DNA from: Hydra vulgaris
Lineage: Eukaryota > Cnidaria > Hydrozoa > Anthoathecata > Hydridae
Length of the DNA: 64,000 nt
Reading direction: 5' to 3'
NCBI RefSeq assembly: GCF_038396675.1
Contig: NC_088922.1
Coordinates: 18,172,501 to 18,236,500, forward strand
Made by a program: the position numbers and the translations under genes. Position 1 is the stretch's first letter; each line of letters opens with the position of its first letter. The notes beneath the pieces are model-generated. The model worked only from the letters and a program-made list of their open reading frames with translations, did not search any database and had not been told where the DNA came from. Below are positions 22,315 through 60,650 of this stretch, in pieces.

Positions 22315-22683
22315 ATGGAATTAAATCCAGAAGATTCAAACGAATTCGACTATTTAAAAGGTAATTTTTAATTTTTAACACTCAATACTTCCTTTTTTTT
22401 TTTTTATTATAATGTTTATATCTTTTAGTTGAAAAACTTTCAAGAGATGTGCTTAAAACATTTGCTGAAGAGTTACCAAAGCACTGGATGAAACTCGCTC
22501 GTTTCTTAAACATTAGTAATGAAGAAATTGAAAGAGTTTTACTTGAGTGTAGTACATCTCGAGAACAAATATATGAAATTTTTAGTTGTTGGTGTAGGAA
22601 CAATCCAGATAAAAAATGGAGAGATTTAAAATCTGGATTGATGTTTTGTGAAAGAAAAGATGTCATCGTTAAATGCCAAAGAA
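22315..22683 (+). CDS. DEATH-domain exons, proposed 5' part of a Hydra-type NLR
   Basis: Exon 1 (22315-22360) starts with the ATG of [15 protein letters not shown]. It ends in phase 1 at a gtaattttt donor. A 68-bp intron (22361-22428, GT...ttttag) follows. Exon 2 (22429-22683) continues [20 protein letters not shown] in frame and contains a complete DEATH-fold pattern: W-x2-LARFLNIS-x2-EI, then [10 protein letters not shown], then L-x6-CERKDVI. It ends at an excellent donor (gtgagt, 22684) in phase 1. DEATH domains form homotypic signalling complexes in innate immunity and cell death. The open frame runs on only about 60 bp into the intron. Donor phase fits the acceptor of the NB-ARC-TPR exon at 56902 on the same strand, so I propose they are one gene. 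Alternatively it is a separate small DEATH-domain gene with other 3' exons. Confidence 0.7.
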
Positions 22684-22746
22684 GTGAGTGCTTTGTTTTT
22701 TGTTTTAATTTATTAAAAAATAAACAACTTATAAAACACTCATAGA

Positions 22747-23889
22747 TTTTGAAATAAAAACCTGTCTTGGGTCAACTAAGATTTCATAACTTATCTGCAT
22801 GCTTGATTTTAAATATAAAACACTTTTCAATGAATTTTTATGGGCTGATAACTTTTTTTACAAAAAAGTCAGTTTTTAATATGTTTATATTTTTGTTTGT
22901 ATTTGTTTTAAATGGAAAGCGTAATATTTTTGTTCCAAATCAAAAATATTTTTCTGTATCTTTATGTCATGTCAAGAAGAGTGATTTCAAACTTATTTTA
23001 CTACCAAAAAAAAAGTGACTTCACAGTATCATGTTCTTAACTGACATGCGGACAATGCATGTCAGAAAAAAATTGTTTCTGTGAAGTTTATGTTGCTTTA
23101 TGCATCTGCGTATGAAGCACTTTGTTTAATCTCTATTTTGATGGTTAACTTAACAAATTATATTAAAGAAGTTCTTCAAATTTGGGACCATCTTGAATCC
23201 GACATGGTTTTGGCGAACAGGTAGAGTTTCTATTTGCTGGAGTAAACGTGGGAAATACGTAACACTCCATTTTGAAATTAATAATTTGAAACCGTCTGGA
23301 TCTGTGTATGCTTTTTATTTATTTTTTATCTATCAGGGTTAAGATTATCATGAGAATATTACCTTTTTTTTAAGGCCATTTGGTCAATGACATTTAAGAA
23401 ATTCAGTCTTTAAATTATTTTTCAACGTATGAAGTGATTTCGATTTGCGTCATTATTTAGCTTTGATTATTATTTACAAAGGTTATACGTTGCCTTTTTA
23501 ATAAAGCTTGTTTTTTACTTATAAACACACTTGACATCACATTCAGAGAAAATCTGAAGTATGCAATTCGATTGATTTTAATGTGATATTGTGAGATAGA
23601 GGAAGACTTGCTGTTAGTACAGTATGAGAGTAGCTTGCAATGTTACTCATGTTGTGCCATTGCTATATCTTATCTACATCGATTGCAGCCCAAACAGATA
23701 CAAGTTATGAACACCATAAAGTGACGTTATCGCAATCTTTTCATAGAGTCCCTTTTTAAAAGAATATAAAATCGTAGATTTATATAATAAATAGGAAGAG
23801 TAATAAATCGTTTTAATAAATCGTAAATATACAGCATTAATATCGAGTATAATATAAATATAAAACTCATAATAAATATACTAAAGAGA
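22747..23889. other. A+T-rich spacer before the satellite
   Basis: No gene recognised. The last 100 bp contain diverged forerunners of the satellite unit (taatataaatataaaactc). Confidence 0.5.
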
Positions 23890-26485
23890 TTGTATTAAGA
23901 AGTATATAACACGTATAATATAAAGCTCGTATTAAGAAGTATATAACACGTATGATATAAAGCTCGTATTAAGAAGTATATAAACACGTATAATATAAAG
24001 CTCGTATTAAGAAGTATATAACACGTATAATATAAAGCTCGTATTAAGAAGTATATAACACGTATAATATAGAGCTCGTATTAAGAAGTATATAACACGT
24101 ATAATATAAAGCTCGTATTAAGAAGTATATAAACACGTATAATATAAAGCTCGTATTAAGAAGTATATAACACGTATAATATAAAGCTCGTATTAAGAAG
24201 TATATAACACGTATAATATAAAACTCGTATTAAGAAGTATATAAACACGTATAATATAAAGCTCGTATTAAGGAGTATATAAACACGTATAATATAAAGC
24301 TCGTATTAAGAAGTATATAACACGTATAATATAAAGCTCGTATTAAGAAGTATATAACACGTATAATATAAAACTCGTATTAAGAAGTATATAAACACGT
24401 ATAATATAAAGCTCGTATTAAGAAGTATATAACACGTATAATATAAAGCTCGTATTAAGAAGTATATAACACGTATAATATAAAGCTCGTATTAAGAAGT
24501 ATATAACACGTATAATATAAAACTCGTATTAAGAAGTATATAAACACGTATAATATAAAGCTCGTATTAAGGAGTATATAAACACGTATAATATAAAGCT
24601 CGTATTAAGAAGTCTATAACACGTATAATATAAAGCTCGTATTAAGAAGTATATAACACGTATAATATAAAGCTCGTATTAAGAAGTATATAAACACGTA
24701 TAATATAAAGCTTGTATTAAGAAGTATATAACACGTATAATATAAAGTTCGTATTAAGAAGTATATAACGCGTATAATATAAAGCTCGTATTAAGAAGTA
24801 TATAAACACGTATAATATAAAGCTCGTATTAAGAAGTATATAACACGTATTATATAAAGCTCGTATTAAGAAGTATATAACACGTATAATATAAAGCTCG
24901 TATTAAGAAGTATATAAACACGTATAATATAAAGTTCGTATTAAGAAGTATATAACACGTATAATATAAAGCTCGTATTAAGAAGTATATAACACGTATA
25001 ATATAAAGCTCGTATTAAGAAGTATATAACACGTATAATATAAAGCTCGTATTAAGAAGTATATAACACGTATAATATAAAACTCGTATTAAGAAGTATA
25101 TAAACACGTATAATATAAAGCTCGTATTAAGGAGTATATAAACACGTATAATATAAAGCTCGTATTAAGAAGTATATAACACGTATAATATAAAGCTCGT
25201 ATTAAGAAGTATATAACACGTATAATATAAAACTCGTATTAAGAAGTATATAAACACGTATAATATAAAGCTCGTATAAAGGAGTATATAAACACGTATA
25301 ATATAAAGCTCGTATTAAGAAGTATATAACACGTATAATATAAAGCTCGTATTAAGAAGTATATAACACGTATAATATAAAGCTCGTATTAAGAAGTATA
25401 TAAAACGTATAATATAAAGCTCGTATTAAGAAGTATATAACACGTATAATATAAAGCTCGTATTAAGAAGTATATAAAACGTATAATATAAAGCTCGTAT
25501 TAAGAAGTATATAACACGTATAATATAAAACTCGTATTAAGAAGTATATAAACACGTATAATATAAAGCTCGTATTAAGGAGTATATAAACACGTATAAT
25601 ATAAAGCTCGTATTAAGAAGTATATAACACGTATAATATAAAGCTCGTATTAAGAAGTATATAACACGTATAATATAAAACTCGTATTAAGAAGTATATA
25701 AACACGTATAATATAAAGCTCGTATAAAGGAGTATATAAACACGTATAATATAAAGCTCGTATTAAGAAGTCTATAACACGTATAATATAAAGCTCGTAT
25801 TAAGAATTATATAACACGTATAATATAAAGCTCGTATTAAGAAGTATATAACACGTATAATATAAAGCTCGTATTAAGAAGTATATAAAACGTATAATAT
25901 AAAGCTCGTATTAAGAAGTATATAACACGTATAATATAAAGCTCGTATTAAGAAGTATATAAAACGTATAATATAAAGCTCGTATTAAGAAGTATATAAC
26001 ACGTATAATATAAAACTCGTATTAAGAAGTATATAAACACGTATAATATAAAGCTCGTATTAAGGAGTATATAAACACGTATAATATAAAGCTCGTATTA
26101 AGAAGTATATAACACGTATAATATAAAGCTCGTATTAAGAAGTATACAACACGTATAATATAAAACTCGTATTAAGAAGTATATAAACACGTATAATATA
26201 AAGCTCGTATAAAGGAGTATATAACACGTATAATATAAAGCTCGTATTAAGAAGTCTATAACACGTATAATATAAAGCTCGTATTAAGAATTATATAACA
26301 CGTATAATATAAAGCTCGTATTAAGAAGTATATAAACACGTATAATATAAAGCTTGTATTAAGAAGTTTATAACACGTATTATATAAAGCTCGTATTAAG
26401 AAGTATATAACACGTATAATATAAAGCTCGTATTAAGAAGTATATAAACACGTATAATATAAAGCTCATATTAAGAAGTATATAA
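23890..26485. repeat. 37/38-bp satellite array with higher-order repeats
   Basis: About 70 head-to-tail copies of a unit that reads aagctcgtattaagaagtat, then ataacacgtataatata. Variants are: aaactcg instead of aagctcg; aaggag instead of aagaag; ataaacacg (38 bp) or ataaaacg instead of ataacacg. Variant order repeats in blocks of about 450-475 bp. The pair aaactcg then aaggag recurs at about 25080, 25528 and 26002, each followed about 140-160 bp later by aaactcg then ataaaggag. Block-wise amplification is therefore visible on top of unit duplication. Confidence 0.95.
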
Positions 26486-26619
26486 GTAGCAAAGTTAGCG
26501 ATAAAATAGTCAAACAAACAAAAATTAATTAGTTAAAATAAAAATAATTTTTTATTGTTGAGATCATTACATTTTAAAAGTTTCTTTTTTTACCTGAAAC
26601 TTATATGAACTTAAGGACT

Positions 26620-28340
26620 TCACCGTAAAATCCTTTTGACAACCACTCCATAATTCTGGTCTTCGATAAGATACACAATATTCTGAGAGTTTGTTACATT
26701 TCCGAGGCAATTTTTATTTCATGTTTCTATTTGATCTTAGATTATACTTATTATTTAGCTTTATTTCGAACTTATTATTAAAATTTGCTGGTAAAAGATT
26801 GTTGTAGTATCTATACATTAAAATTAGATGCTGGTAGATATTTATTTCAAATATATTCATCATTTTTATATCTTTCATAAGAGGTTTTGCCTGTTCACGT
26901 TTATGTTTAGAGTATATGATTCGGCAATTGTGTTTTTGTAGCTTATAAATTTTTTTAAGTTTTATTTTATGCGTACTTGCCCATGATATATTTGCATAGT
27001 TAATAAAACAGTGAATTAGCCCAAAATATATCAATTTGAGACTTAAAATCTTCACGTATGGGCGGACTCGATACATTACGCCAATAGTTTTGGTGATTTT
27101 TGATTAAATATAGTTTAACTGGGGAAGCCAGGATAAACTTTCATCGACAAGAATTCCTAGGAACTTTATACTTGTTTGCTTTTTAATAAATTTATCATTT
27201 AAATAAAGTTCAGGCAACTTAAGTGGAATGTTTAATTCTTGTTTTTTTTTTTATGAAATAGAGTATAATTTGTTTTCTCAACATTAAGTGACAGTTAGTT
27301 TGCCCTAAACCAAATTAACTTTATTTAATTCCATATTCATAGCTGAATAGAGATGTTTAATATTAATATTGGTAAGAAATAGACTTGTATCATCTGCAAA
27401 CATTATTGAATTTAGTTTTAATGATGCATTACAAAAGTCATTAACATAGATAAGGAATAGGAGCGGACCAAGGATTAATCCCTGCGAAACTCCGCATACG
27501 ATATTTAATGTTCCGGATTGTTCATTATGAACATATTGCTTTCTATTTGTAAGATAACTTTTAACCCGGGAATATGTTGTATTATTTATATCGTAATGCT
27601 TAATTTTTTCTAAGAGAATGCAATGGTCAACTGTATCGAATGCTTTAGATAGATCTATAGATACTCCTAGAGTATATTTGTTATTGTTAAAACCATTAGT
27701 TATATGGTTGACTATTTCAATAATGCATGTTCAGTTAAGGGATTTTTCTGGAACCCGAATTGTTTTGGGTAAAATAAATTGTTTATAGTGAGATACTCGA
27801 ATATCCTATTATAAATTAGGCGTTCAAACAATTTTGAGAATACAGAAAGTAATGATATAGGTCTATAGTTTGTAATGTAAGAATAATCAGTGAATTTGTA
27901 AATTGGGATTATTTTAGCTATTTTAAGAGCAGGGAAAATACCAAAATTTAATGAAAGTTTCAGTATATGAAACAAAGGTTTGCTTAAGCTAGTTTTGTTA
28001 AAAATCACTATATTACTAGAGATTTCATCATACCCTGGGGTTTTTTTTTTTTTTTAAAGAAGAGTACGCTGTTTCAAGTTCTTTATAACTTAATTCATTA
28101 TCATATAATATTTTGTTATTTAAAGGTTTTAGATTTTAAATGATTCTGATGTTGCCAATATTTTGTTAGCAAGTTTAGGTCCAACATTTGTGAAGTACTT
28201 GTTGAACTCTTTTGAGATTAGGTTTTGACAGAATATATCGGTGTTTTCAATATTAATTCTCTTACGCAGTGAAGAAGCAATATTTTAGTCTTTTCCGATG
28301 ATGTTGTTAATTATGGGCCATGTTTTTTTTACTATTGAAT
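26620..28340 (-). mobile_element. CR1-like LINE relic with intact FADD motif but broken frames
   Basis: Minus strand, in coding order: linker (28340-28010); RT entry region at 28008-27712 with PIYKFTD and NYRPISLLSVFSKLFERLIYN; motif A region with SKAFDTVDH; motif B as CGVSQGLILGP; motif C as MFADDTSLFL (about 27410); thumb and C-terminal domain at 27076-26714 with HCFINYANISWAST and YNLRSNRN; tail to about 26620. At least two frameshifts between 27700 and 27080 split the frame. It lies directly after the satellite and is the second of three related fragments in the window, all on the minus strand. Confidence 0.85.
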
Positions 28341-29442
28341 TGGCAATTCGAATTGCAATCAATTCGATACAAATAAAAAAAAGATTTATAAATGAATTTA
28401 TGGGATTCAAACTATTACTGTATGTTTTCGTTTAGGTGAAAAAATAAAATAGTAAATTTATATCAACTAATGTGAACAAAGATTTTTCTGATAAAAGATA
28501 TTTTAATTATTGGATCGACTGAAAAAAAAAAAAAAAACAATATTTTTTGTTTAATAATATAACTAATTATCAACAATTTTTTTAGAACTTTTTTAATTAA
28601 ATTCTCATAATTTTATTAAACCAAGTTAAATAATATTATTTAAAATTATATATATATATATATATTGATGAAAGGCAAGGAAGACCGAAAAACTTATCCT
28701 TTATTGTTGTCGTTGCATAATTGTATTTATTTTGATTTAGAATGTTTTTATCTATTAATGATCATTCTTCCATCATCTTATCATTATAAATATGCACGCA
28801 AAAATTACATTTAGAAACCAATTCACATAACTAAAATATCTGAAACATTTAAATATTTATTTAGTTTCTAAATAAACACCATTTAAAAACATCTCTTGGG
28901 AAAAGTCGGGTAGCCCCGGACGGCGGGTAACTCCGAATAATTGATGTGCAGCTTAAACTAAAGAAGCTATGTGGTTTTAAATACTATAAAAACACTATTT
29001 GAGTGAAAATATGACATATACAAAATATCTATCATAACATGTCAAAGCGATTGGCTGGGAGTGCAAGATATTGTTTTCCACTACTTTCCCTACCCTCCAA
29101 TTTTGAAACATTTCTTTATTCTAACATGTTTTCTTTTATATTTTGTATATTATTAAGGTAATCAACAACTATTTTTTTGTTTCTAATTTAATAGATAAAT
29201 GTTTATACTTTTAAAAAAGTTGTTTGATACTTTGTTTTATATTGGTACATATGTAAAATCTATTTTTTCTTTTAGTGCCCGGGGCTACCCAATTTTCCTC
29301 TAATATTTTTTGTGATATTATCTGACTAATATATTTGAATAATCCATATTATATTAAAGTACAGTTTTTTCAATTATCAGCTAATTTTAAAATTTTTATA
29401 TTAAGTAATAATTTATAAAAAGATTTTCAATTATTATATAAA
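28341..29442. other. A+T-rich spacer containing one MITE candidate
   Basis: No gene seen. A short (TA)n lies at about 28649-28666. Confidence 0.5.
28896..29304. mobile_element. Inverted-repeat MITE candidate
   Basis: Left end gggaaaagtcgggtagcccc; reverse-complemented right end aggaaaattgggtagccccg. About 400 bp, no coding capacity, and target duplication not clear. Confidence 0.6.
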
Positions 29443-29962
29443 TATGTACGTATGTATGTATGTATGTATGTATGTATGTATGTATGTATGTATGTATGTA
29501 TGTATGTATGTATGTATGTATGTATGTATGTATGTATGTATGTATGTATGTATGTATGTATGTATGTATGTATGTATGTATGTATGTATGTATGTATGTA
29601 TGTATGTATGTATGTATGTATGTATGTATGTATGTATGTATGTATGTATGTATGTATGTATGTATGTATGTATGTATGTATGTATGTATGTATGTATGTA
29701 TGTATGTATGTATGTATGTATGTATGTATGTATGTATGTATGTATGTATGTATGTATGTATGTATGTATGTATGTATGTATGTATGTATGTATGTATGTA
29801 TGTATGTATGTATGTATGTATGTATGTATGTATGTATGTATGTATGTATGTATGTATGTATGTATGTATGTATGTATGTATGTATGTATGTATGTATGTA
29901 TGTGTGTATGTATGTATGTATGTATGTATGTATGTATGTATGTATGTATGTATTTATGTATG
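29443..29962. repeat. (TATG)n microsatellite, left part
   Basis: About 130 units with only two or three substitutions near the right end. Open in all three plus frames (MYVC repeats), which is a repeat artefact. Confidence 0.95.
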
Positions 29963-30533
29963 TAGGCCTGTAAATCGAGCCACGCTTACCAGGGCTCGGC
30001 CTGGCTCGTTTACATATTAAGAGTGTTCAGGTTCGGCTCGAGCTCGTTTCGAACATGAGATTCTTTGTTCGAGCTCGGCTCGTTAAGGATTAGTATTGTT
30101 TGGGCTCGGCTCGTTTTACATGTTGCTCGAGCTCGACTGGTTTAAAACTCGAAATAATTATTGTAACCTGTTAGTTTAAAGCTCGTTTAGTTTAGAAACA
30201 TTTAGTTGTGCAACTTGAAAAAATACCTCTCTAGAAGTTCAAAAATGGCTCCTTCAACAAAATCATTGTGAAAAGAGTTTGAAAAAAAAGTTTCATATAT
30301 TTACTTTTCTGTTTTGCATAATTTGTACACTCTTAAATCCATTAAAAGTGGTCTAAAACATATTGGGCCTGTTGGCAAATGAAAATAGTCAATAGCAGCC
30401 TCACGTAATTAAATTGTTTATATTAATCAATTATTTAGCGTAATAAGAGTTATATGGGTCATATCTCATATGGTTACACTAACACTATATTTTTATTATA
30501 TACTAATATATATAATATCACCATTTTATTTAT

Positions 30534-30618
<85 letters not shown>

Positions 30619-30794
30619 GAGCTTTAATCGAGCCTGTATGAACGAGCCTATGATGTTGAAGCTCGGCTCGTTTAATAAACGAGCCTAATTTTTTGTTCAA
30701 GCCCGGCTCGTTTACCATTCGAGCCGAACATGAACGAGCTCTTGTCGAGCCGATCACCGAGACGTTCACGAACACGAGCCAGGATTTACAGCCC

Positions 30795-30796
<2 letters not shown>
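29963..30796. mobile_element. hAT-type MITE inserted into the (TATG)n array
   Basis: Ends taggcctgtaaat and, reverse-complemented, tagggctgtaaat, a common hAT terminus. Both ends are built of many inverted cgagcc/ggctcg motifs (gctcggctcg). The flanking 8 bp are tatgtatg on both sides, as expected for a hAT target duplication, although the host repeat makes this weaker. 834 bp, no transposase. It holds a (TA)n array at 30536-30616. Confidence 0.8.
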
Positions 30797-30826
<30 letters not shown>

Positions 30827-31062
30827 TGTATGTATGTATGTATGTATGTATGTATGTATGTATGTATGTATGTATGTATGTATGTATGTATGTATGTATG
30901 TATGTATGTATGTATGTATGTATGTATGTATGTATGTATGTATGTATGTATGTATGTATGTATGTATGTATGTATGTATGTATGTATGTATGTATGTATG
31001 TATGTATGTATGTATGTATGTATGTATGTATGTATGTATTTATGTATGTATGTATGTATGTA
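30797..31062. repeat. (TATG)n microsatellite, right part
   Basis: Continuation of the array at 29443-29962 after the MITE, about 66 units, passing into (TA)n. Confidence 0.95.
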
Positions 31063-31739
31063 TATATAAAAATATATATATATATTAAATGACGACATCT
31101 TGTTTGAGAGTTGAATCTATTTTCTTACATTTTAAAACATTACGTAAATATCTCATAAAATTTACAAACTTAAATAAAAGAATATCAACAATTACAAGTG
31201 AAGATATTTAATATATACACGTGTATATATAAAAAAAGAACTTGGAAACTCGTACAAGACCGTATGGTCTCGTAGTCGAGTACCGCTGTAACAAGAAGTT
31301 GTTGCATGTTAAATATTTTAAATAAAAAAGTGTTTTGCAATAATAAAAGAATAAAAAGATTTCAATAAAAAAATTTGCAAAAAAATAAAAACTTCACAAA
31401 AAAATTTCTTAAAGATAATTTGACAATATAGGCAATATAGCAATATAGGCTTGCAGATCGTAAATAATAGAATTACAAATCATACAATTAAAATCATAGA
31501 TTAAAAATCATTTAAACCGATATAAAAATAACAGATAAAAATAATTTCAAAAGGTTTAAAAACTACTTCTTTCAACTTTTTTTTAAAAGATATGTAATTC
31601 CATTCAAAAGAAAAAAATCAAAATTATTTGAGACAAAGTTATTTGAGTTATTTTTTTACAAAGATACGGTCCAGGAAATGATATGTAAAATTTACAATGA
31701 TGAATTTTCGAAAATGGTTGCATCAAAAAAGCATCATTT
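31063..31739. other. A+T-rich spacer
   Basis: No gene recognised. Its right end merges with the 3' untranslated tail of the LINE on the minus strand. Confidence 0.5.
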
Positions 31740-33132
31740 CGTAGATCGTTATCGTTTTTTTGTTATGTTATAAATAAACTATGGAAAAAAGACGGAAATA
31801 ATTTCGTTTTACATTTGTACATAAAATAAAGAATATTATATACGTTAAGTTGATATATGTTTAAAACATTCATTTTTCTTAAGAGAGGGTTTGAATGAGT
31901 TCTTCGATCACAAGTATTAACTAAACGTGGTATATGTTTCTGATGACAAGAAAGAGGTTCTAGTTTACTTTTGTTACTACTGCCCCACGCAATATTTTCA
32001 TAGTTAATATGGCAGTGAATAAGTGAATAATATAGTTGAATTAAAGTGCGCATGTTTAAATAGCTTTTTGATTTGTATAATATTCCAATACTTTTTAAAA
32101 TTTTGTCGCTTAAATTTTTGATATGCTGTCTCCATGCAAGATTTTCATCAATATATATTGCTAAAAACTGAGTAATTTTTAATCTTTTTACTTGAATATT
32201 ATCAATAAATATAGATGGCATTTCGTATGGTAATATATTTTTTTTTTGAAAGTGGGTGTAATAGAGCCTAGTTAGATTTGTCAATATTTACTGAAAGTTT
32301 ATTTAATTTGAACCAGTCAGAAATCTTTTTAAGTTCTAAGTTCATAATTTCAAATAATATAGTAATGTTGCTGTAAGATAAAAATAAATTTGTGTCGTCG
32401 GCAAACATTATTATCCTCACGCTGGATGCTTCTTGGAGATCGTTGACATCTATAAGAAAAAGCGGCCGTAGCGCAGTGGTTAGCGCGCTTGCCTCAGAAG
32501 CAAGAGATCCGTGGTTCAACGCCACCTCTGGACAATTTTAATACATCGGTAAGGAAGGAGGCGTAAACTTCCTTTCAAATGCTCTTCAAGTGCTCTGTGT
32601 GCTTTCAAGTGCTCTGTGATAAGACCGTATGGACTTTTTGGGGCACCTAAAATAAAAGTTAAAAATAAAAAGAAAAGGTCCGAGTATAGAACCTTGTGGC
32701 ACGCCACAAGTAATGTTTAGTAACGTTTTTGGTGATTTATTGTCAATGTGTACTTATTGAGCACGATTATTTAAATAACTCTTTGCCCATTTTAAAACAA
32801 CTCCTGTGATTCCATACAATTCAAGCTTTTTAATAAAAATTTGATGGTCAATGGTATCAAAATCTTTTGATAAATCAATAAAAATCCTAATGTATATTCA
32901 GATTTATTACACGGCTCGTTAATACTACGTGTAAACTGAAGTATTGCATGTTCGGTGGAGTTATTTATTTTGAAACCATATTGATTATTAAATAAAATAT
33001 TATTTACAGAAAAATGAGTGTTGATTTTTTTACATAAGATTCTCTCTAAAATTTTTGAAAATACAGAAAGAACAGAGATAAGGCGATAGTTATTTACTTT
33101 AGTAGCATCCCCTCCTTTGAATATCGGAATTT
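31740..33132 (-). mobile_element. CR1-like LINE relic interrupted by a SINE
   Basis: Minus strand. RT entry region (about 33130-33000) with NNYRLISVLSVFSKILE; motif A region FDTIDHQ; motif B CGVPQGSILGP ending at about 32680; insertion of a SINE (32461-32672); motif resumes LFLIDVNDL, then motif C IIMFADDTNLFLS and WFKLNKLSVNIDK; C-terminal thumb at 32284-31763 with HCHINYENIAWGSS. Frameshifts are present besides the insertion. The 5' end is cut by another SINE at 33133. Confidence 0.85.
32461..32672 (+). mobile_element. tRNA-derived SINE inside the LINE
   Basis: Full-length copy. tRNA-like head agcggccgtagcgcagtggt with A box, anticodon-like arm gcctcagaagcaag and B-box-like gtggttcaacgcc; middle ggtaaggaaggaggcgtaaa; a duplicated tgctttcaagtgctctgtg section; tail tttttggggcacctaaaata and an A-rich end. 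It interrupts the LINE between GPFLFL and LIDVND codons. The target duplication is A-rich and cannot be set exactly. Confidence 0.9.
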
Positions 33133-33330
33133 TAATTTTTTTTTTTTGTAGTTATTTTAGGTGCTCCCACAAGTCCTTACGGACTTACCACAGAACACCG
33201 CGGGAGAGCATTTAACAAAAAGTTCACGCCTCCTTCCGTACCTATGTTGCTTGTTGGGCTACAACTGACACCGAACCTGGAACATCTGGGTTCTAAGCCA
33301 GAACTCTAACCACTGCGCCACGGCTCCTAT
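33133..33330 (-). mobile_element. tRNA-derived SINE
   Basis: Minus-strand copy of the same family: head ggagccgtggcgcagtggtt, middle ggaaggaggcgtgaac, tail gggagcacctaaaataac and poly-A (poly-T at 33133). It sits at the 5' break of the LINE. Confidence 0.9.
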
Positions 33331-33448
33331 TTTTAAATTAATAATTTTTAATTAATTTAATTTATGAAAATCAATAATTACGAATTCTCTCAATACTAAT
33401 TTTTTCATTAAATCTAACAACTTTTGACTATATTTTTATATATTAAGT

Positions 33449-33543
33449 GGGGCCGTGGCGCAGTGGTTAGAGTGCTTGCTTTATAAGCAAGAGATCCAGG
33501 CTCGAAACGAGCATTGGACATATTTTCGCGTCACGGTAAGGAA
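33449..33543 (+). mobile_element. tRNA-derived SINE, left half
   Basis: Head ggggccgtggcgcagtggtt through gtcacggtaaggaa, where the sequence breaks exactly in the conserved ggtaaggaaggagg box. The missing half lies 8.0 kb away at 41546. Confidence 0.9.
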
Positions 33544-34339
33544 CCCAGTGAAAAAGCGCACATGGGATACGCGTGGATTTTTTCCACATGTAACCCATGT
33601 GGGGATTATTATTTTGTCCCATGTGGGTTTCATATGGTAAATCCCACATGGATTCCATATGGTAAATCCCATATGGGATACGCGTGGGTTTTTACCATAT
33701 GTAACCCATATGGGGATTATTATTTTGTCCCATGTGGGTTTCATATGGTAAATCCCACATGGGTTTTATGTGGTAAATCCTACATGGGATATAGGTGGAA
33801 AATACTACATGGTATAGATCTTAAATGCCACATATTTTAATCCAAATGGTATAAAAGTAGTCAATACTAGACAAATGAAAGTCGGAATGCTTCTATGATA
33901 AGTTTTAAAATTCTTTTAATTTAAAAATTACTCAAATGGTAATTTAAAATTAATCATCGAAGCTTTCAGAGAGGCTTAACTTAATCTGGTATTTGCTACT
34001 TTATCCCATTTGGTATTCAAAACGTGTAGCATTTTTGATCTTTTACATGTGATTTTTTCCACCTATAACCTATGTGGGATTTACCTTAAACTATTATGAC
34101 GAAATTTTATAAAATTAAAAAACGTGTTGCAAAATGAATTTATTTAAAAATGCTATTAATCAATACATCCAAAACGAATATTAAAAAATATTATTTTTTC
34201 TTTTGCGATTTACACGCCGTTTTTTGTCAATTGAATTAATTAAATCGCTTCGGCTTGTATAATACCAAAGTTTTTAGTATCTTCTAACTTTCTTCAAACA
34301 TTTTCTAAAAAAAAAAATATATAAATACAAATATATATA

Positions 34340-34340
34340 A

Positions 34341-34409
<69 letters not shown>

Positions 34410-34430
34410 TATATATAAATATAAATATAA

Positions 34431-49640: not shown

Positions 49641-49642
49641 CT

Positions 49643-49705
49643 GTTGAATTCAGCGTAGTTGACTAACTACGCTGAATTCAACAGCGTAGTTAGTCAACTA
49701 CGCTG
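49643..49705. repeat. Double palindrome inside the hAT element
   Basis: 49643-49682 is a palindrome (gttgaattcagcgtagtt, loop gact, inverse arm). It is followed at 49682-49705 by cagcgtagttagtcaactac plus gctg, the exact inverse of the core of the first. Two inverted copies of one hairpin in tandem. Confidence 0.9.
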
Positions 49706-50155
49706 TTAGGATATTAGGCTAATTTCTATCTTATTGAAAAAAAAAAGTTATATTTTAAGCTATTTATTGACTAATTATCTTTATTTATAATTCAAAATGA
49801 ACTTATGTGAAAACAATTATACTTCGAATTAATAAATAAACTTTATTTAATATACCTTCCGTATTTGATAACTTTTAATGTTAAAGAACTTGTGACTATC
49901 ACGCCAACGTTAAGAATTTAAAAAATAAAAGGAAAACATTGCATGGAGAATAAGCAGCTCAACAAATTTTATAGCGAAAATTTAGACATTTTAAATAAAT
50001 AAATAAAGTTTAATCACTTTTTGTTTTTATTTATTGTTTATTACAATCCCGAAATCCCGGGAAATTTTAGAGACTAATCCCGGGATTTCGGGATCATGAA
50101 TTTGTCTGTAATCCCGGGATTTCGGGATCCCGGGATTGCCATCCCTAGTTCTGAC

Positions 50156-50555
50156 AGTTGTGTGATTTTAAATACCACAATCTTGCTTGCATACTTCTCG
50201 TAAATTTTCAATAATATTGGTTGACAAAATTAACCAATTATTTGGAATTGAAAAGAAACGTTTAGGGCATTTTGTTTTTGATATTAGTTTGCCAATGATA
50301 AGTGGTAATAGACATAGTGCGCAGAACGAATGAATACTTTATATTGTATATGATTTATTGAGTGTCTAGTTAAAATATTTACACTAAAAATACTTTAAGG
50401 TCTTCTACTTATCTTTTTTCTTTTTATTATTGTATTTTAGCTTTTTGTATTTATTATTTTGTATTTGTATTATATAGTTTATATAAGTATATATATATAT
50501 ATATAAATACGTGAATAAAGTTTTGCTTTTACTCATAAGCAATTGCTTGCTCTTA
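50156..50555. other. A+T-rich spacer
   Basis: No gene. The motif gcttttactcataagcaatt at about 50524-50545 recurs inverted near 56690-56712, an outer inverted repeat around the next nest. Confidence 0.4.
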
Positions 50556-50812
50556 GGGATTGTCCATAAAGTACGTACGCTCGGAGGGTAAGAGGCGGTC
50601 TTCAAATGGCGCGTATGAGTAGGGAGGGCAGTGGGTCAATTATAAAAAAAAGGAAACACTAAATTAAGAAAAATATCATAAAATGTTAGATAAATAAGTT
50701 AAAAGCGTAGGTACTTTTAGGGAGGTGGAGGATACTCAAAAAAACGTATTGCAAAATGCGGGGAAGGAGGGGGGTGTTTGAAAAAAAGTTTACGTACTTT
50801 ATGGACGACCCC
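50556..50812. mobile_element. MITE with TTA duplication (PIF/Harbinger-like TSD)
   Basis: Ends gggattgtccataaagtacg and, reverse-complemented, ggggtcgtccataaagtacg. Flanking TTA at 50553-50555 and 50813-50815. 257 bp, non-coding. A 3-bp TTA duplication is typical of PIF/Harbinger, but no transposase is present to confirm this. Confidence 0.8.
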
Positions 50813-50977
50813 TTAGGGGTAAATGCTTTATACCGCTGTAGTATAAGATTTTTACTCCCACGTTTTTTTTTATTCTTAAGTAAAAATCTCATATTAAGTT
50901 TTTACTCCCCAGTAACAATCGCATATGAAGTTTTCACTCCACAGTAAAAATCTTATATTAAATTTTTGCTCCCATTA

Positions 50978-51103
50978 GGGGTCATCCATAAAGAACGTCA
51001 CGCTAAATTTAACTAATGGCAAGAAGTAGAAGAATTTTGGCTCTCGTGCGCAGAGATTTTTTTTGTATTATAGCGCCTTATGACGACCTTTATGGACCAT
51101 CCC
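50978..51103. mobile_element. 126-bp MITE with TTA duplication
   Basis: Ends ggggtcatccataaagaacg and, reverse-complemented, gggatggtccataaaggtcg. Flanked by TTA at 50975-50977 and 51104-51106. Same class as the 257-bp MITE just upstream. Confidence 0.85.
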
Positions 51104-51159
51104 TTATGAGATTTTTACTCCCATAAAATATTTTGCGGCAAAATATGTTTTACAACTAT

Positions 51160-54100
51160 GGGGTCATCGATAAATGATGTCAGTAAATATAGGGGGGAAG
51201 GGAGTGCTGGAAAGTTTGACACTAATTGACAATGGGGAGGGGGGTGTTGAGGACAAAATGATGTCCATTTAAATTGTTTTTTTAGTTTTAATGAGCAAAT
51301 TTTAACGGTATTAACATCTACTAGGAAATTAATATTAAATGCGGGGAAATTCATATTATATTTTATTAAATTATTTATAATATAATATTATAAATTAATA
51401 TAATAAGTTTCCCAGAGACATTAAATAAATAACAACTACTAACGTAAAATAAAAATTACTATCGTTTTATTAATATATATTACCATTTGACTGCGAATCA
51501 AATTATGTTAGAAATATTAACTCTTTGTATATAAAGTTCACAATCGTTATTCGCTCCTTAGCGGATTATAAAATGCGGTTCAAAGTAAACTCATAAAAGT
51601 AAACTCATAAATTTGTTATTTTTTGAAATTAAGTTGTTGTTATTTCAAATACGAAACTCTAATTGCTCTCAAGTTAATTGTAAAACGTGATGCAAACACA
51701 TAAAGTCTATTGAATGCAAACACATGAAGTCTATTGAAAATTCGAAAACGCTAATTTCTCCCAAGCGGGTTGAAGAAACTTTTTTAAAAAACTTGCGCTA
51801 ACGATGAGCAAAATCATTATTCTGATTGTGAATTAAACAATACTAATAAATCGATATTTAGATATGGATAAAACCGCATTACTTAACTTATTGATGATCT
51901 CGTATGGAAATGCTCATCCCGATAAAAAAAGGCTAATATCCAGAAAGAAATCCATAGTATATGGAATTCATTAAAAGAAGAGAAACTGGTGCATAAGGAT
52001 CTTGAATCAAGAGTAATGTATTTAATCAATTTATTTAATGAAAAGGCAATGAAGTTCAAGAGCAAGCAATTATCATTTTGGGCCAATACTCCAAAACAGT
52101 CTGTGCCCACGTATACTCCACTTGAATTTGACAAGACTTCCTCACAGTTTGTTGAGCCCACCAATGAGCGATCTGTTATTGATGATCAACAAAGTGCATT
52201 AGCTTTGAGTATGTTGACAACGAAAAATCAAAAAAATGCAAGAACAGTGGCTTAAGATCGACTCAATTCTGAGATCGCAGCTTTAAATTGTAAAGTTGCT
52301 GGACTGAAGTCTAGAAAGAGATGTGGATTCATTATTGAAGCTGAAGAAGATGATTTGAAAAAGGAAAAGAAGAAACTAGCTCATCTATGTAAAGAACTGG
52401 CCAAAAAAAAGTATGATCAAGCTCAACAGAAGAAAACTAGAGAACTGAAAAAAGGTAGAATGGAGGAAATCTGCTTGGAGCATCCAAAAATCAAAGAAAA
52501 ACTAAAAATCAGAAAGAAACCTGGTTAACCATCATTAGATGTAGATCAACCTCTTCTTTTGAAGGCAATTATGGATATTGCTCTCCATGGTTCATCCGTT
52601 AATGTTTGTTAATATTGTATTTGTTAGAATTGCACTATTGTAAATATCCTTGAAACGTTAACAACTATTTTCAAGATTTGATTTGAATATAATTTACGAA
52701 GTAAATCTCGTTTTCTGTAAATCAGTTAATTACGTCCAAATATATTTCTTTATTATTTTGAGCATTAAAACTCTCGACGAATTAACATCCGAGATGAAAA
52801 AAATTGGATTTGCAATTAGCAATTGCGCCCTCTATACTCGTCTACTTCCGAGAAGTTACGGAACATTAGAAGGCAAAAGGCACGTCAAAACAGTCCCTGT
52901 TAGATTGATCAGTCCTCAGAACCAATCTCATTTAAAAAAAGTTGACGGACTCTTTTGCAGTTCAACTATAAAATATGTGGAAGAAGTTTGTTCTATTTTA
53001 GGGCCAGATAAAGTGTGTTTCATTAGCCAAGACAACAAGGCTAGAGTGCCAATTGGAATTACAGCAGTCAAAAAACAAGCGCCGTTGTTGATGCATTTGG
53101 AGTACCGGGTAACTATCCCTGACCACGACTGGGTTGTGGCTGCTAAACACAAGCTTATACCATCTGTATACGCTGGAATTACGATCAAAAAAGATAGTCT
53201 CGAAAAAACAGATGCTGCTACTAATTAAGGACCTACCTACATTATTGTTCAATCTGGAAAAAACACATCCTCGACCGCCTTCGCTCATGGCTTAGACTTT
53301 CTGCGGCTCTTGGATATCAAAGAATTCGACTCCATTACCAGAGATCCTCAACTATTATGGTTAAGCCTATCGTTGTGTTTAGCGTCGATAGAGGACCCGA
53401 CGAAAATCCCAGATACCAGAAAGTAATTGAAATCGGGATTCACCATTTCTTGAAGAATAACCTTGACGCTCTTTTCATCATGACGAACGCTCCAGGCCGC
53501 AGTGCATTCAACAGAGCTGTGCGACGAATGGCACCTCTAAGTAAAGAATTATCTGAGGTGATTCTTCCGCACGAACATTACGGAACTCATCTTGATTCTT
53601 AAGGTAGTTACAATGACAAAAGTTAATTTGTAAAAATAATAATATAATTTTTAACCTATAATAACCAATATATCTTTTTAAATCAGGCGGGACAATAGAT
53701 GAAAATTTAGAAAAACAGAACTTTGGTTTTGCTGGACAGGCTTTGGCTGATATTTGGTCTGATCTACAAATTGACGGTTATTCAACCATTGCAGAGTATA
53801 TTAATCCAGACAAATCAGAGCTAGATTCAAGGAGCCTTTTATTACAAGATCAACGTTAGATTGCCGATCATCTTTGTACAATATTTTACTCAAATTGTGA
53901 AATGTGAAAATCGTTCTTGTTTTCGGACTATTAGAAGCTCTTACTTTACTCTAATTAGAGCAAGATTTCTTCCGCCACCTGTCCCTTTCAACCAAACGAG
54001 AGACGGGCTCAAAGCAGCAGATGTCTCAGAAGGAGCAAAAGAATTGTTTCCATCATCCGTCTTTATGCTCATTGCATCAAACATTGAAAGTATTCTTCCT

Positions 54101-54771
54101 CGTACTGCCAAAGTATTTCCAATTTTGCCGTATGATGCGTTTTGTCCATCAAATCAGTCTAGCCTAGCTGATAGAATCTGTAAAAAGTGCAATATCTACT
54201 TTGCCTCTCAAGCTTTGTTAAAAAAGCACGTTTCTATCCATTCTTCTGATATAACACTCCCTCTAATCAAAGGGTTAAACCTGTTCGTATCGCTGCCAAG
54301 CGTCAGACAGAATTTTTGGCAGTCATCGCCATGCAGAAGAGTTTGGAAAACTGCTGAATGGTTAGATGAAAACGAAGTTGACGCAACGAATTTGATTGTA
54401 CCTCAAGAATACGATATCCTTTTAGAGCGCGGAGAGCATTCACTACCTATTGTTTCAATCGATAATCACTTCAACAACCCATGGGAAGATTATATTAAAG
54501 ATATATAATACTAATTGCTTAGTTGATTATTTAATCAGATATCGACTATTATATAATATAATTTGATGAGATCTACTATTATATAAATGTATAATTTAGT
54601 CAGAAAAAAAATCAATGGTTTTTAAGCATTTTTATTGTTTTTTAGGGGGGGAGTACTTAAAACTGACATCATATATAACAGGGGGTTGGCCAAAAATTGA
54701 CAGTTTGACAAAGGGGGGAGAGGGAGTCGAAAATTTCAGAAAAAATACTGACATCATTTATGGATGACCCC
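51160..54771 (+). mobile_element. 3.6-kb DNA transposon of unassigned family
   Basis: Terminal repeats: left ggggtcatcgataaatgatg; right, reverse-complemented, ggggtcatccataaatgatg. Both continue tcagta and are followed by G-rich runs and gtttgaca/ttgacaat motifs. Flanking bases are TAT on both sides (51157-51159, 54772-54774), possibly a 3-bp duplication. It contains a multi-exon transposase-like gene. A 545-bp relative without coding capacity lies at 37282-37826. Confidence 0.85.
51864..54508 (+). pseudogene. DDE-like transposase of an unassigned family, with C2H2 finger
   Basis: Segments in order. From 51864, MDKTALLNLLMISYG; a frameshift near 51950; then DLESRVMYLINLFNEKAMKF; a stop; a Lys-rich coiled region (about 52260-52530, KKEKKKLAHLCKELAKKKYD). 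Probable intron about 52596-52767. Then KTLDELTSEMKKIGFAISNC and VCFISQDNKARVPIG, shift near 53225, FSVDRGPDENPRYQKVI, TNAPGRSAFNRAVRRMAPLS and HYGTHLDS. Next come a stop where Gln would fit (53600-53602) and an 83-bp GT-AG intron (53604-53686), followed by GGTIDENLEKQNFGFAGQAL. From 53861 comes a further frame with CKKCNIYFASQALLKKHVSI, a C2H2 finger (C-x2-C-x12-H-x3-H). SQD and SVD-x-GPDEN are plausible first and second catalytic Asp blocks of an RNase-H-like fold (inference). Dead by at least three lesions. Confidence 0.65.
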
Positions 54772-55370
54772 TATGTTGTATTTGGAGGATATTTTTTAAC
54801 GTTTTAAAGATGTGACTTTTTGAAAAGTAGTAAAGAAACGATTCCGTTTAATTTAAGCATTTACTCAAAACTTTTGTAGCGGTTAAATTAATTGACAAAA
54901 TGTTAGGTGTTATTAATAAACAAAATGTCGCCGTTGGACGGTTTAACCTAACTCTTTGTTTGAAATCCATAGAACGAATATATGTAAAAATATATTAAAA
55001 AACTATATATACTGCTTCTTCAGACCAGTTTATTTATTCAAACTGGCAATGAAGATGAACATAAATCAGTTTTGCTAAAATTTTCTAACCGTATGCGCAA
55101 CGAGGTACGCGAGGAAATTATTAGGTATTTAAATATTGCAGAAAGATTTATTAAGATGCATAATAGTTTGTGATAATAAATTGATCAAAGATGCAACTTA
55201 GGGAACCGATGAGGATATAATAGGATGTACTTCATTTATGAAGGGGGAGGAGGGTTAGCTATTCAAAAATATACAGTAAATATGGAGCGAAAAAAAAGAT
55301 ACAATAACTGAAATTAAACAACAATGTTTAAAATTCGTGAGAAAAATACATAAGTAAATGCACTAGATTT
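54772..55370. other. A+T-rich remainder of the outer element
   Basis: No gene. A G-rich patch (aagggggaggagggtt, about 55241) resembles the inside of other short elements. Confidence 0.4.
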
Positions 55371-55950
55371 TCAACTGTTAATCACAGCGTCAAAATGGAT
55401 TCCAGATGATTTGTCTAGAAATATAGAATAATTGCTTAACTTATTAAGCCGTAAACTGCATGAGTAGGTTATCCTTTTTTTTTTTTGCTCCATGTTTGCT
55501 ATATACTTGGATATGCCTACCTCCATAAATGATGCACATCCAATTACCATCGCATTAGTTGCCCATGTCGCATCTTCAAGCATTTTAATTTTACAAGTAT
55601 GTGTTCCAATTAGCAGATTCAAATATCCCTTTATTTCGTCCTGAATTTTGTGAATCCATATAGTTAACAACTTTGTTTCTAATTGGCTTATGTTCATCTT
55701 CCTTTCCAGCTATGATAAAAGAAACTGCTCCAAAAATTGAGAAAAAAACTCCTTTAATTCTATGGATTCCCCTTGGATAAAAAATTAGATTGATACTTCC
55801 AACAACAACTTGTATTTCCTAACAATTCCCAATTTTTCTGCAATTGATTTTCTCATATCAAAAGTTGCACATTTTGCTATTATTTCATTTGAAACATTTA
55901 CACTGCTTTAATGTCGAGTATTGACGTATGTGTGCTTGATTCCACGTCAT
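55371..55950 (-). pseudogene. Unidentified coding relic
   Basis: Minus strand. 55950-55700 reads NEIIAKCATFDMRKSIAEKL, GIVRKYKLLLEVSI, a stop, then GESIELKEFFSQF. 55697-55371 reads MNISQLETKLLTIWIHKIQD, GYLNLLIGTHTCKIKMLEDA, ATNAMVIGCASFMEVGISKY. The composition is protein-like with helical periodicity, and one stop splits it. It lies between the right border of the 3.6-kb element and the right end of the outer element, so it may be a piece of that element's transposase. Family not recognised. Confidence 0.45.
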
Positions 55951-56299
55951 TGATAATTGGTTTAGTTTTAACATTATCATCATTTGATAGTTTTAACAAT
56001 ATATATGCCACTGCATTAATAGATTACAAATGTTTCAATATTTTTATTTAAATACTCGCTTCTTTATTGCTTTTCAAGAAACCCCATTAATTAAAAAGTT
56101 TAAAAGTATTCACAAAATACAACGAAGTTTGGTTGCAAAAATACATTTGCCGCAATATATTTTATGGGAATAAAAATCTCATAATCGGAGTAAAAATTTA
56201 ATATGAGATTTTTACTGGGGAGTAAAAAAAGCACGGGAGTAAAAATCTCATACTACACCGTTACCAATAGAAATCGTTTGTTTTTATTTTTTTCTTTAA

Positions 56300-56545
<246 letters not shown>

Positions 56546-56888
56546 TTATATATAGTCAAAAAATAGTAGAATAAAGTAGTGAAATAATAAAATGAATGTC
56601 CAATTATATAAAGATAAAACAAAAAACAACACGTTTGTACGCCGTTTTATGAGTTGAAGCTTTTTTATTCACGCCTTTTTCTCTTATATGAGCAATTGCT
56701 CAGAGTAAAAGCTTTCGGGTGCAAAAAAAGCAGTTGCTCAAAATTTTTATTCACGTAATTTGTCCTATTACTCAAAAAACTTGGAGTAAAAGCATCATTT
56801 TATTCAACCGGCCTAATACGCAAAAAAATATAATTATTTTAGGCCGTTAAACTTAAGATTTATTGTAAATTTAGTGTAAATTTTGTCT
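56546..56888. other. Short spacer before the NB-ARC exon
   Basis: Contains inverted agcaattgct and aaaagc motifs that pair with about 50524-50545. No gene. Confidence 0.4.
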
Positions 56889-56901
56889 ATGATTTTTATA
56901 G

Positions 56902-59900
56902 CGATTACTATACGTTCAATATTTGGTGTCCAACCTTCTGTAGAAAATCTATTTTCCCGTGAAAAAGAACTCAATGAAATTCATCAATATTTTAGCAAAT
57001 TACAAGATACAAAAAAGTCAATCTTAGTATTGTATGGAATGTCCGGTGTCGGAAAGACACAAATTGCCAAAAAATATTGTGAAATTTATCATAACTTTTA
57101 TGAAAATTTTGTTTGGATAGATGCAGCATTCGGGAAGTTACAAACTTCAATGAATAACCTTGCCCAAATATTAGGGTTCATTGTTCAAGATTCGCAAAGT
57201 GATTCGTTTAATATTGAAGTGGTTGTTGAAAAAATTCACAACTATTATAAAAATGAAAAGACTTTGTATATTTTTGACAACGTCGATGATGAAAGTGTTC
57301 GAAATTTGGGAATGTACATTTCAAGGAGACCAAATGCTTTTACTTTAATTACCTCTCAATGGCGAATGTGGTCAAGTAATGTAAAGCAAATAGCCATTCA
57401 TGTTTTTTCTTCTGAAGATGCCTTCACTTATGTAAAAATGAATATTAAAGAAAACACAGACAAAAATCTAGAAAAACTAGTTAAAGAACTTGCTTATCAT
57501 CCATTTGCTATTACTCAGGCAATAAAATATATAAAGATGCATAAAGTTTCGATAGAAAAGTATATAGATCGATATAAATCAGAGCCCTTAAGAATACTAG
57601 ACAATGATATCTTTCCAACCGAAGAAGAATCAAAGTCTGCAATAAAAGCAATCACTTTAGTTTTAGTTAAGTTAGAAAAAACTAAAATTATTCCATTAAA
57701 AATACTAAACTGTTTATCTCATTGCAATGGTCAAAGCATAAGTAAAGAATTTATTACACAAATCTCAAAACAAATGACAATAAATGAAGAATACTTAATA
57801 GATGAAGCCATTGGATTACTGTTGAGTTATTCCTTACTAGATAGTTTTGATGATGAAAAATATTCTATGCATGATCTGACACAGTTGTCGTGTAGATATT
57901 TTCAAAGTAAAAACTTAAGTACAAATACCTATCTTGATCTTATTGAAAATTATTTTAAATTTGAGTTGAATGAAGTAAGAGATCATGTGAATTATGGTAA
58001 ACATTTTGTTTTTCACTTTCTTTTCATGTTTCGTATAAACAAAAAGAGAATGTCAAAAACCTTCCATCATATGACATCTTCTATTAAAGATTTATTAATA
58101 TATAAAGGTTTATTTCAAGAAGCAATTGAAATATTAAAACATGTTAGGCAATTTAGTATTGAAACCTATGGAGAAAATAATGAACTCACACTTGATGCAA
58201 GACATAATGTGGCAATCTGTTTGTACGAAATGGGCAAATATGACGAAGCTTTAGAAAATTATTATTATGTTGATAAAAAACAAACTGAAATTTTAGGTAT
58301 AAACCATACATCTACAATGACAACAAAAAATAATACGGCAAACTGTTTACGCGAAATTGGAAAATTTAACGAAGCTTTAGAAATGTATTATAATGTTGAT
58401 AAAATACAAACGGAAATTATAGGTATCAATCAACTATCTACGCTGACAACAAAAAACAATATTGCACTTTGTTTAGAAAAAATGGGAAAATATAACAAAG
58501 CTTTAAAAATTTATTCTACTGTTGATAATATACAAACTGAAATTTTAGGTACCAACCATCCATCCACAATCACAACAAAGCATAATGTTGCAAGTTGTTT
58601 GTATGAAATGGGAGAATATAACAAAGCTTTAGAAATTAATTATTATGTTGATAAATTACGAACTGAAATTTTAGGTATTAGCCATCCATTTACATTGGCA
58701 ACAAAAAATAATATCGCTATCTGTTTGTATGAAATGGGAAAATATAATGAAGCTTTAGAAATCAATTATTATGTTGATAAAATACGTACTGAAATTTTAG
58801 GTATCAACCATCCATCTACATTGACCACCAAACATAATATTGCAGGCTGTTTGTATGAAATGGGAAAATATAAGGAGGCTTTAGAAATAAATTGTTCTGT
58901 TGATAAAATACAAACGGAAAGTTTAGGTACCAATCATCCATATACAATGGCAACAAAAATTAATATTGCAAATTGTTTAAACAAAATGGGAAAATATAAT
59001 GAAGCTTTAGAAATTTATTATTCTGTTGATAAAATTCAAACTAAAACTTTAGGTATCAACCATCCTTCTACAATTGAAACAAAGCATAATATTGCCATCT
59101 GTTTGTATGAAATGGGAAAGTATAACGAAGCTTTAGAAATTTATTATTCTGTTGATAAAATAAAAATTGAAGTTTTAGGTATTAACCATCCATCTACAAT
59201 GACAACCAAACATAATATTGCAGGCTGTTTGTACGAAATGGGAAAATATAATGAAGCTTTAGAAATAAATTATTCTGTTGATAATATACAAACTGAAGTT
59301 TTAGGTATCAACCATCCATCTACAATGGCTACAAAAAATAATGTTGCTAATTGTTTAAGAAAATTAGGAAAGTTTAACGAAGCATTAGAAATTTATTATT
59401 CTGTTGATAAAATGCAAGCTGAAATTTTAGGCATCCACAATCCATTCACAATAGAAATAAAGCATAATATTGCATTCTGTTTGTACGAAATAGGAAAATA
59501 TAAAGATGCTTTAGAAATTAACTATACTGTTGATAAAATAAAAACTGAAAATTTAGGTACCAACCATCCATCTACAATGGAAACAAAACATGATATCGCA
59601 ACCTGTTTGTATGAAATGGGAAAATACAATGAAGCTTTAGAAATTAACTATTATGTTGATAAAATGCGGACTGAAGTTTTAGGTACCAACCATCTTTCTA
59701 CAATAGAAACAAAGCATAATATCGCAATCTGTTTGTACGAAATGGAAAAGTATTGCGAAGCTTTAGAAATAAATTATACTGTTGATAAAATTAAAACTGA
59801 AGTTTTAGGTATTAATCATCCATCTACAATAGAAACAAAAACTAATATTGCTGACTGTTTGTACGAAATGGGAAAATATAATGAAGCTTTAGAAACTTAT

Positions 59901-60650
59901 TATTCTGTTGATAATATACAAACTGAAGTTTTAGGTATCAATCATCCTTCTACAATAGAAACAAAGCAAAACATCGCAATCTGTTTGAACAAAATAGGGA
60001 AGTATAACGAAGCTTTAGAAATCAGCTATACTGTTGACGAAATTAAAACTGAAATTTTGGGTATCCACCATCCATCTACAATAGAAACAAAGCATAATAT
60101 TGCAATCTGTTTGTACGAAATAGGAAAGTATAAAGAAGCTTTAGAAATTAACTATTCTGTTGATAAAATAAAAACTGAAACTTTTGGTACCAATCATCCT
60201 TCTTTAATTGAAACAAAACTTAATATTGCAATTTGTTTGTACGAAATGGGAAAGTATAATGAAGCTTTAGAAATTTATTATCAAGTTGATAAATTATTAA
60301 CTGAAACTTTTGGTATCAATCATTTATCTACCATGACAATAAAACATAATATTGCAGGCTGTTTGTACGAAATGGAAAAATTTAATGAAGCCTTAGAAAT
60401 TTTATACTATGTTGATAAAATAAAAACTGAAATATTAGGTGTCAATCACTCATCTACTATAGAAACAAAATGTAGTATCGCAGGCTGCTTGTACGAGTTG
60501 GAAAAATTTAATGAAGCTTTAGAAATTTTTTATTATGTTGATAAAATGCAAACTGAAATTTTAGGTATTAACCATCCGACTACAATGGAAACAAAAAATA
60601 ATATAGAAAATTGTTTGTTCGAAATAGGAAAATATACTGAGAAATTTTAG
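56902..60650 (+). CDS. NB-ARC plus TPR exon of a Hydra-type NLR
   Basis: A single 3.7-kb open exon. A splice acceptor (gatttttatag, AG 56900-56901) places its first two bases in phase 1. The first in-frame Met after it is inside the P-loop, so an upstream coding exon is needed. Using the DEATH exons at 22315-22683, the protein is 1349 aa. NB-ARC signs: GMSGVGKT P-loop (57036-57059, residues 146-153), LYIFDNVDD Walker B (Asp about 226), TLITSQW, HPFAITQAI (GLPL-like) and SMHDLTQ (MHD, 423-425). From residue about 524, 19 complete and one partial TPRs of exactly 42 aa follow, kinesin-light-chain style: HPST-x2-TKHNIA-x-CLYEMGKYNEALEI-x2-x-VDKI-x-TE-x-LG. The role is presumably cytoplasmic pattern sensing with nucleotide-driven oligomerisation, the TPRs acting as sensor. 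A polyadenylation signal AATAAA lies at 60706. An unspliced start at ATG 56889 is the alternative. Confidence 0.88.

Follow-up and report, generated by a model that had tools for sequence, protein, structure and literature searches.

In a stretch of 64,000 nucleotides of the Hydra vulgaris genome (C3:18172501-18236500, given as contig and position and hereafter called the window), a short exon encoding a DEATH domain is followed on the same strand, 34 kb downstream, by a long exon encoding an NB-ARC domain and an array of TPR repeats. We propose that the two belong, together with a short first exon, to one three-exon protein-coding gene, predicted to encode a cytoplasmic NLR-like (STAND) receptor with DEATH, NB-ARC and TPR parts (probability about 0.92). 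This agrees with an earlier reading of the window (the original prediction), which had joined the two pieces into one gene, and it is supported by the genome-wide pairing of the two exons, by phase-1 splice sites kept in the paralogs, by the congruent divergence of both parts and by the same splice phases in a distant relative.

Pairing of DEATH and NB-ARC exons across the genome

The original prediction placed the exons correctly: the DEATH exon ends at a phase-1 gtgagt donor, the NB-ARC-TPR exon begins at a phase-1 acceptor, and the frame joined over exons 1, 2 and 3 is open throughout, although the 1350 codons then counted include the stop, leaving 1349 residues. Given that a phase match alone has one chance in three of occurring, we used a genome-wide comparison (911.5 Mb, 15 contigs). 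With E up to 1 allowed, the DEATH protein gave 137 matches; 19 of them, including that of the window, were below E 1e-20. For NB-ARC, 103 matches were merged with 31 of the 127 from a second search, taken as additional, to yield 132 places. The results show a same-strand NB-ARC match 7,387-36,336 bp downstream of 16 of the 19 close DEATH exons, with a median of 14.4 kb (these distances are gaps between matches, near but not exactly intron lengths). When strands were flipped as a control, no DEATH exon had an NB-ARC match within 40 kb (0/19); random places on the same contigs were paired in 0, 1 or 2 cases of 19 (2000 draws), and places shifted by 0.1-1 Mb in at most 4 of 19 (2000 draws). Comparison with other Hydra loci had been proposed as a check on the gene, and a DEATH exon followed by a same-strand NB-ARC exon is indeed what recurs there. 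This same order and strand at fifteen other loci on five contigs speaks against an assembly join of unrelated pieces as the source of the distance between exons 2 and 3, an explanation to which an interval full of simple and satellite repeats might lend itself and which we consider exceedingly improbable.

The original prediction had also put the second intron at about 100 times the size of the short introns. The ratio was underestimated, since its 34,218 bp amount to about 500 times the 68-bp intron 1. An exceptional position of this intron within its family is not borne out: the gap in the window is only the second longest among the 16 linked loci, all of which have a long one (7.4-36.3 kb). 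Judging from these gaps, genes of this receptor family usually have a long second intron.

Splice sites, divergence and damage in the paralogs

We read the exon borders in 17 linked pairs, i.e., the 16 above plus C14:33774493 (two pieces, 46-47% identical, gap 31.3 kb). A phase-1 GTRAGT donor, set one base beyond the codon that aligns with residue 100, is kept in 15 of them, the exceptions being C11:55427055, which has CTAAGT, and C14:33774493, which has GTAATT after a damaged exon. A phase-1 AG acceptor, two bases before a codon of the exon 3 frame, is present in all 17; this codon aligns with the first full codon of exon 3 in 16 and is one codon off at C15:41.79 Mb (counts made by eye from alignments, five acceptors also by script). 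The distant relative C15:1146830, whose DEATH and NB-ARC parts are 30% and 41% identical, displays the same two phases with approximately 1,100 bp between them and an acceptor one codon further upstream.

Of 21 loci, 18 have a short first exon of like kind, recognized by script in 17 and by eye at C5:1.59 Mb. Among the other three, C15:41.80 Mb has a changed ATG and C14:33.77 Mb a stop in this exon, and at C15:1.15 Mb the exon could not be placed. Intron 1 measures 64-101 bp across the 19 loci in which the script placement was judged correct. In addition, an AG lies at most 28 nt before the ATG in the 18 loci for which the exon-1 script returned one, in some of them after a pyrimidine run. An AG within this distance is common by chance, so that a spliced leader or an exon of the 5′ untranslated region (UTR) joined ahead of the start codon is only plausible; passages of PMC12220107 give the spliced leader on 48.1% of Hydra non-transposon Iso-Seq reads.

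The two parts have also diverged together, the protein distances of DEATH and NB-ARC being correlated across nine loci (r 0.80; an equally high value arose in 29 of 20000 permutations). This set comprises the loci in which both parts were read fully and without stops, with C11:55427055 kept despite its lost donor, while C15:41797748 was excluded for its frameshift, C15:1146830 as an outlier, and seven other linked loci because exon 3 had been read only in part. As a separate observation, C15:41.26 Mb and C15:41.64 Mb differ by only 0.02 in the DEATH exon vs. 0.15 in NB-ARC, and gene conversion is possible.

Several observations weigh against a single working gene. Three of the 19 close DEATH exons (C15:41448630, C15:41415953 and C14:33316584) lack an NB-ARC match in the 40 kb that follow them downstream, and the 19 loci are partly clustered, hence not independent. 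Exon 3 alone could be translated in 9 of the 16 linked loci checked for a Met or a stop (C15:41.79 Mb left out), in which a Met precedes the P-loop. A number of paralogs are damaged: C11:55.43 Mb has lost the donor, C15:41.79 Mb carries a frameshift, C15:41.47 Mb has a stop within its NB-ARC match, and C14:33.77 Mb has a DEATH part interrupted by stops, so that an intact copy in the window is no proof of expression. The TPR array itself seems to continue, in decayed form, for approximately 400 bp past the stop. Finally, when the window is compared with four paralogs, the ratio of nonsynonymous to synonymous substitution (dN/dS, NG86) is 0.14-0.30 in DEATH and 0.27-0.35 in NB-ARC, values that are rough because dS is large (0.43-1.24).

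The Met codons bear on whether the two pieces are separate genes, namely a small DEATH-only protein ending in intron 2, either by reading into it or by polyadenylation there, and an unspliced NB-ARC-TPR gene starting from an in-frame ATG at 56889, 13 nt before exon 3. Besides this ATG, the nine loci with their own Met in exon 3 are in favor of such an arrangement. Against it, in 14 of the 16 linked loci, all but the window and C11:33.05 Mb, the reading frame ahead of exon 3 runs back to a stop without a Met, both splice sites and the phase are kept in the paralogs, and the DEATH and NB-ARC exons travel together; we regard two genes as very unlikely. The nine loci also limit an argument of the original prediction, according to which exon 3 once spliced has no Met before the P-loop and needs an upstream coding exon. 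The need for an upstream start holds for the window, where the first Met is that of the GMSGVGKT motif itself, and is no rule for the family.

The decayed units past the stop and the damaged paralogs could, in turn, indicate a pseudogene in the making. We consider this rather doubtful, given a frame open throughout and dN/dS of 0.14-0.35 across both parts; by this measure, the window gene is conserved under purifying selection.

We thus retain a single three-exon receptor gene, for which we infer the splice across the 34-kb intron, expression and signaling from the sequence. Transcription would begin upstream of 22315, and ordinary cis-splicing in phase 1 would remove the 34-kb intron. If the protein works as NB-ARC proteins do, binding of a signal by the TPR array would lead NB-ARC to exchange nucleotide and to oligomerize, and the oligomer would cluster the DEATH domains, which would recruit death-fold partners.

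Contents of the long intron

As the original prediction had it, intron 2 is filled with transposons and other repeats: it contains a Tc1/mariner element, a second repeat that we leave unnamed, remains of a LINE-type (long interspersed nuclear element) reverse transcriptase and a 2.6-kb satellite (Table 1), as well as runs of TATG and AT. The Tc1/mariner element and the unnamed repeat were each scored at no fewer than 40 genome places, the window's own included, and the 99% identity of the best other Tc1/mariner copy suggests a young insertion. We submitted 18 frames of the window to Pfam, 12 of them inside intron 2; five of these 12 gave a family match at E up to 0.01, including one (53825-54508, a C2H2 finger) that was below Pfam's own cut-off. 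The frame with a BED finger derives perhaps from a hAT-like transposon. According to passages of PMC12220107, transposons make up 65.3% of the H. vulgaris AEP genome.

Table 1. Positions of the gene, its domains and the elements of intron 2 (numbering of the window)
Feature	Position	Strand	Remarks
TGATTTTTATAG, possible acceptor	22270..22281	+	33 nt before the start codon; would join a spliced leader or 5′ UTR exon
Exon 1	22315..22360	+	46 nt; start codon, 15 codons in all, phase 1 at end
Intron 1	22361..22428	+	68 bp, GT..AG, phase 1
Exon 2, DEATH domain	22429..22683	+	255 nt; donor AA/GTGAGT (slash, exon border); phase 1 at both ends
Intron 2	22684..56901	+	34,218 bp, GTGAGT..TTTTTATAG, phase 1
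37-bp satellite	23892..26485		about 70 copies, 2.6 kb; intron 2
LINE-type reverse transcriptase remains	27305..27730	-	RVT_1, E 5.2e-18; intron 2
Tc1/mariner element	38600..39950	-	best other copy 99% identical; intron 2
BED-finger frame	48975..49649	-	zf-BED, E 4.3e-5; intron 2
Unnamed repeat	52600..54600	+	39 other places scored, 88-94% identical; intron 2
Exon 3, NB-ARC plus TPR	56902..60650	+	3749 nt including stop; acceptor TTTTTATAG/CG (slash, exon border)
NB-ARC domain match	56961..57488	+	Pfam; residues 20-195 of the frame from 56904
P-loop GMSGVGKT	57036-57059	+	within the NB-ARC match
TPR array	58194..60650	+	19 units, each exactly 42 residues, plus a partial 20th
Apparent decayed TPR units, 3′ of the stop	60651..61050	+	shifted frames; three frames read by eye

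We cross-compared ten of these long introns and found that they have mostly scattered repeats in common. Several long stretches are common to the introns of the neighbors C15:41.26 Mb and C15:41.64 Mb, and the introns of the window and of C5:2.79 Mb have stretches of 939 bp and 365 bp in common, at 70-72% identity. Because the stretch in common with C5:2.79 Mb has another match elsewhere in the window intron, it was taken for a repeat, though it may be an old common piece of intron. Intron 2 is probably an old long intron of the family that was turned over and enlarged by insertion of transposons and satellite. Each paralog seems to have acquired most of this filling on its own, with the exon borders unchanged.

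The same comparison addresses the idea that the NB-ARC exon does belong to the DEATH exon but that the 34 kb hide extra small exons with coding sequence, or another exon that could serve as the first. In its favor, an unseen phase 1-1 cassette could sit in intron 2, nearly half of the Hydra non-transposon Iso-Seq reads reported in passages of PMC12220107 carry a spliced leader, and the stretches of 939 bp and 365 bp are common to the window and C5:2.79 Mb. On the other hand, no plus-strand frame of at least 25 codons recurs in more than three of the ten introns compared, and the stretch in common with C5:2.79 Mb looks like a repeat; we judge such exons unlikely. The DEATH-NB-ARC intron of the C5:2.79 Mb paralog contains, in addition, a reversed NB-ARC fragment (L027, approximately 4718-4878, reverse strand).

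Relatives with and without a DEATH exon

Within the set of 103 matches, only nine NB-ARC places are preceded, at up to 40 kb upstream, by one of the 19 close DEATH exons, and 94 are not; the places of the 103 other than the window are 67-75% identical to it. To characterize the exon border in DEATH-less loci, we took a sample of 26 (L004, L008, L010, L015, L016, L059 and L062-L081), the acceptor being scored by script over 31 rows and C5:2.03 Mb being read by eye. In 17 of the 26, the old acceptor AG is absent and an AG is found 24 nt downstream in the same phase; two have both AGs, three the old AG only, and four the downstream AG plus an AG 3 nt from the old place. The 17 loci with the shifted AG may be spliced to another N-terminus or may start after a trans-spliced leader. 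Exon 2 has phase 1 at both ends, so that skipping it would keep the frame. It is tempting to see in the phase-1 long intron an exchange point of a receptor family that evolves fast, where exon 2, as a symmetric cassette, could be skipped, lost or replaced with exon 3 remaining in frame, an idea that we put forward with some reserve.

The search for another N-terminus yielded no candidate that we could retain. Upstream stretches of three DEATH-less loci (one of them partly N) have no frames of at least 35 codons in common other than the NB-ARC exon. Nine DEATH-like regions were rejected, namely three on C1 and one on C7 (61.3 kb) that lie 58.7-68.5 kb upstream of NB-ARC, and five others, one of them 30.3 kb upstream of NB-ARC at C1:72.16 Mb. 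In frames of at least 60 codons, the script found no phase-1 GTRAG donor in them; they look like DEATH exons of other genes. DED was also rejected: one DED frame occurs 29.3 kb upstream of NB-ARC at C13:45.57 Mb and one 77 kb upstream of NB-ARC at C10:4.38 Mb, but among 44 relatives of the first frame these are the two that lie within 100 kb upstream of an NB-ARC place. For TIR, none of seven does. Both counts were made against 39 of the 132 NB-ARC places, those on the contigs concerned.

At several places in the genome, DEATH frames of 86 codons, each scoring 40.6 bits, recur together with DED frames of 141 codons, each scoring 27.4 bits, approximately 26.7 kb apart on opposite strands (e.g., C1:28994055-29021079, C3:36788291-36815337, C10:40931603-40958658 and C14:12153548-12180593). 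They represent perhaps a large multi-copy mobile element carrying both death-fold genes. NB-ARC-TPR places are moreover crowded at the ends of C1, C6, C7, C8, C9, C11, C13, C15 and others: 53 of the 103 are located no more than 5 Mb from a contig end, compared with 16.1 expected if they were evenly spread over their contigs, although their clusters make the places near contig ends dependent. Elsewhere in the window, two small glycine-rich frames with secreted-like starts (2795-3268 on the minus strand, 7261-7635 on the plus strand) gave no Pfam match at E up to 0.01.

Domain by domain, the protein predicted from the joined exons has the parts that define the Hydra DEATH-NB-ARC-TPR receptor family: an N-terminal Pfam Death match (E 1.7e-10, 41.3 bits, cut-off 22.6), an NB-ARC match with its P-loop (E 2.6e-11, 43.7 bits, cut-off 23.5) and a C-terminal TPR array (TPR_12, E 7e-133). 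NACHT and LRR, which together would make a vertebrate-type NLR, are not among the best 25 of the 37 Pfam families matched, nor are the CARD and WD40 of an Apaf-1, Death and TPR being found instead. Apaf-1 has the same general layout as the Hydra receptor, i.e., a death-fold domain, NB-ARC and a repeat sensor, with CARD in the place of DEATH and WD40 in the place of TPR. Plant NB-ARC resistance proteins differ from the Hydra receptor in their N- and C-terminal parts. The Hydra NLR-like proteins known as HyNLRs, attributed to Lange et al. 2011, reportedly combine DEATH or DED with NACHT or NB-ARC and repeats. In our search of solved structures, the only match at E up to 0.01 was to a plant NB-ARC resistance protein (PDB 6j5t, chain G; E 0.0074), a weak likeness confined to the NB-ARC core. 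Placozoan NB-ARC receptors, in the passages of PMC6321704, resemble the Hydra protein in combining NB-ARC with TPR or WD40 and a death-fold N-terminus and in having no LRR; they belong to another phylum and carry mostly CARD or death-like domains.

Closest are the NACHT/NB-ARC receptors with TPR repeats of Hydra itself, of which passages of PMC7642931 count 103 in H. viridissima and, in two gene sets of H. vulgaris, 38 and 29, naming Death or DED as N-terminal domains. They are like the window gene in repeat type, nucleotide-binding domain and host, and we take the gene to be most likely an ordinary member of this class. The same passages do not mention the exon plan or the second intron, and no exon plan of Hydra NB-ARC-TPR genes is announced in the titles or abstract openings of the literature found.

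The junctions given here for 17 loci can be checked against existing long-read cDNA. If automatic gene models are cut at the intron of 7-36 kb, the published counts of effector-less Hydra NB-ARC-TPR receptors would be inflated; otherwise, what we describe is a long intron within a transposon-rich genome.

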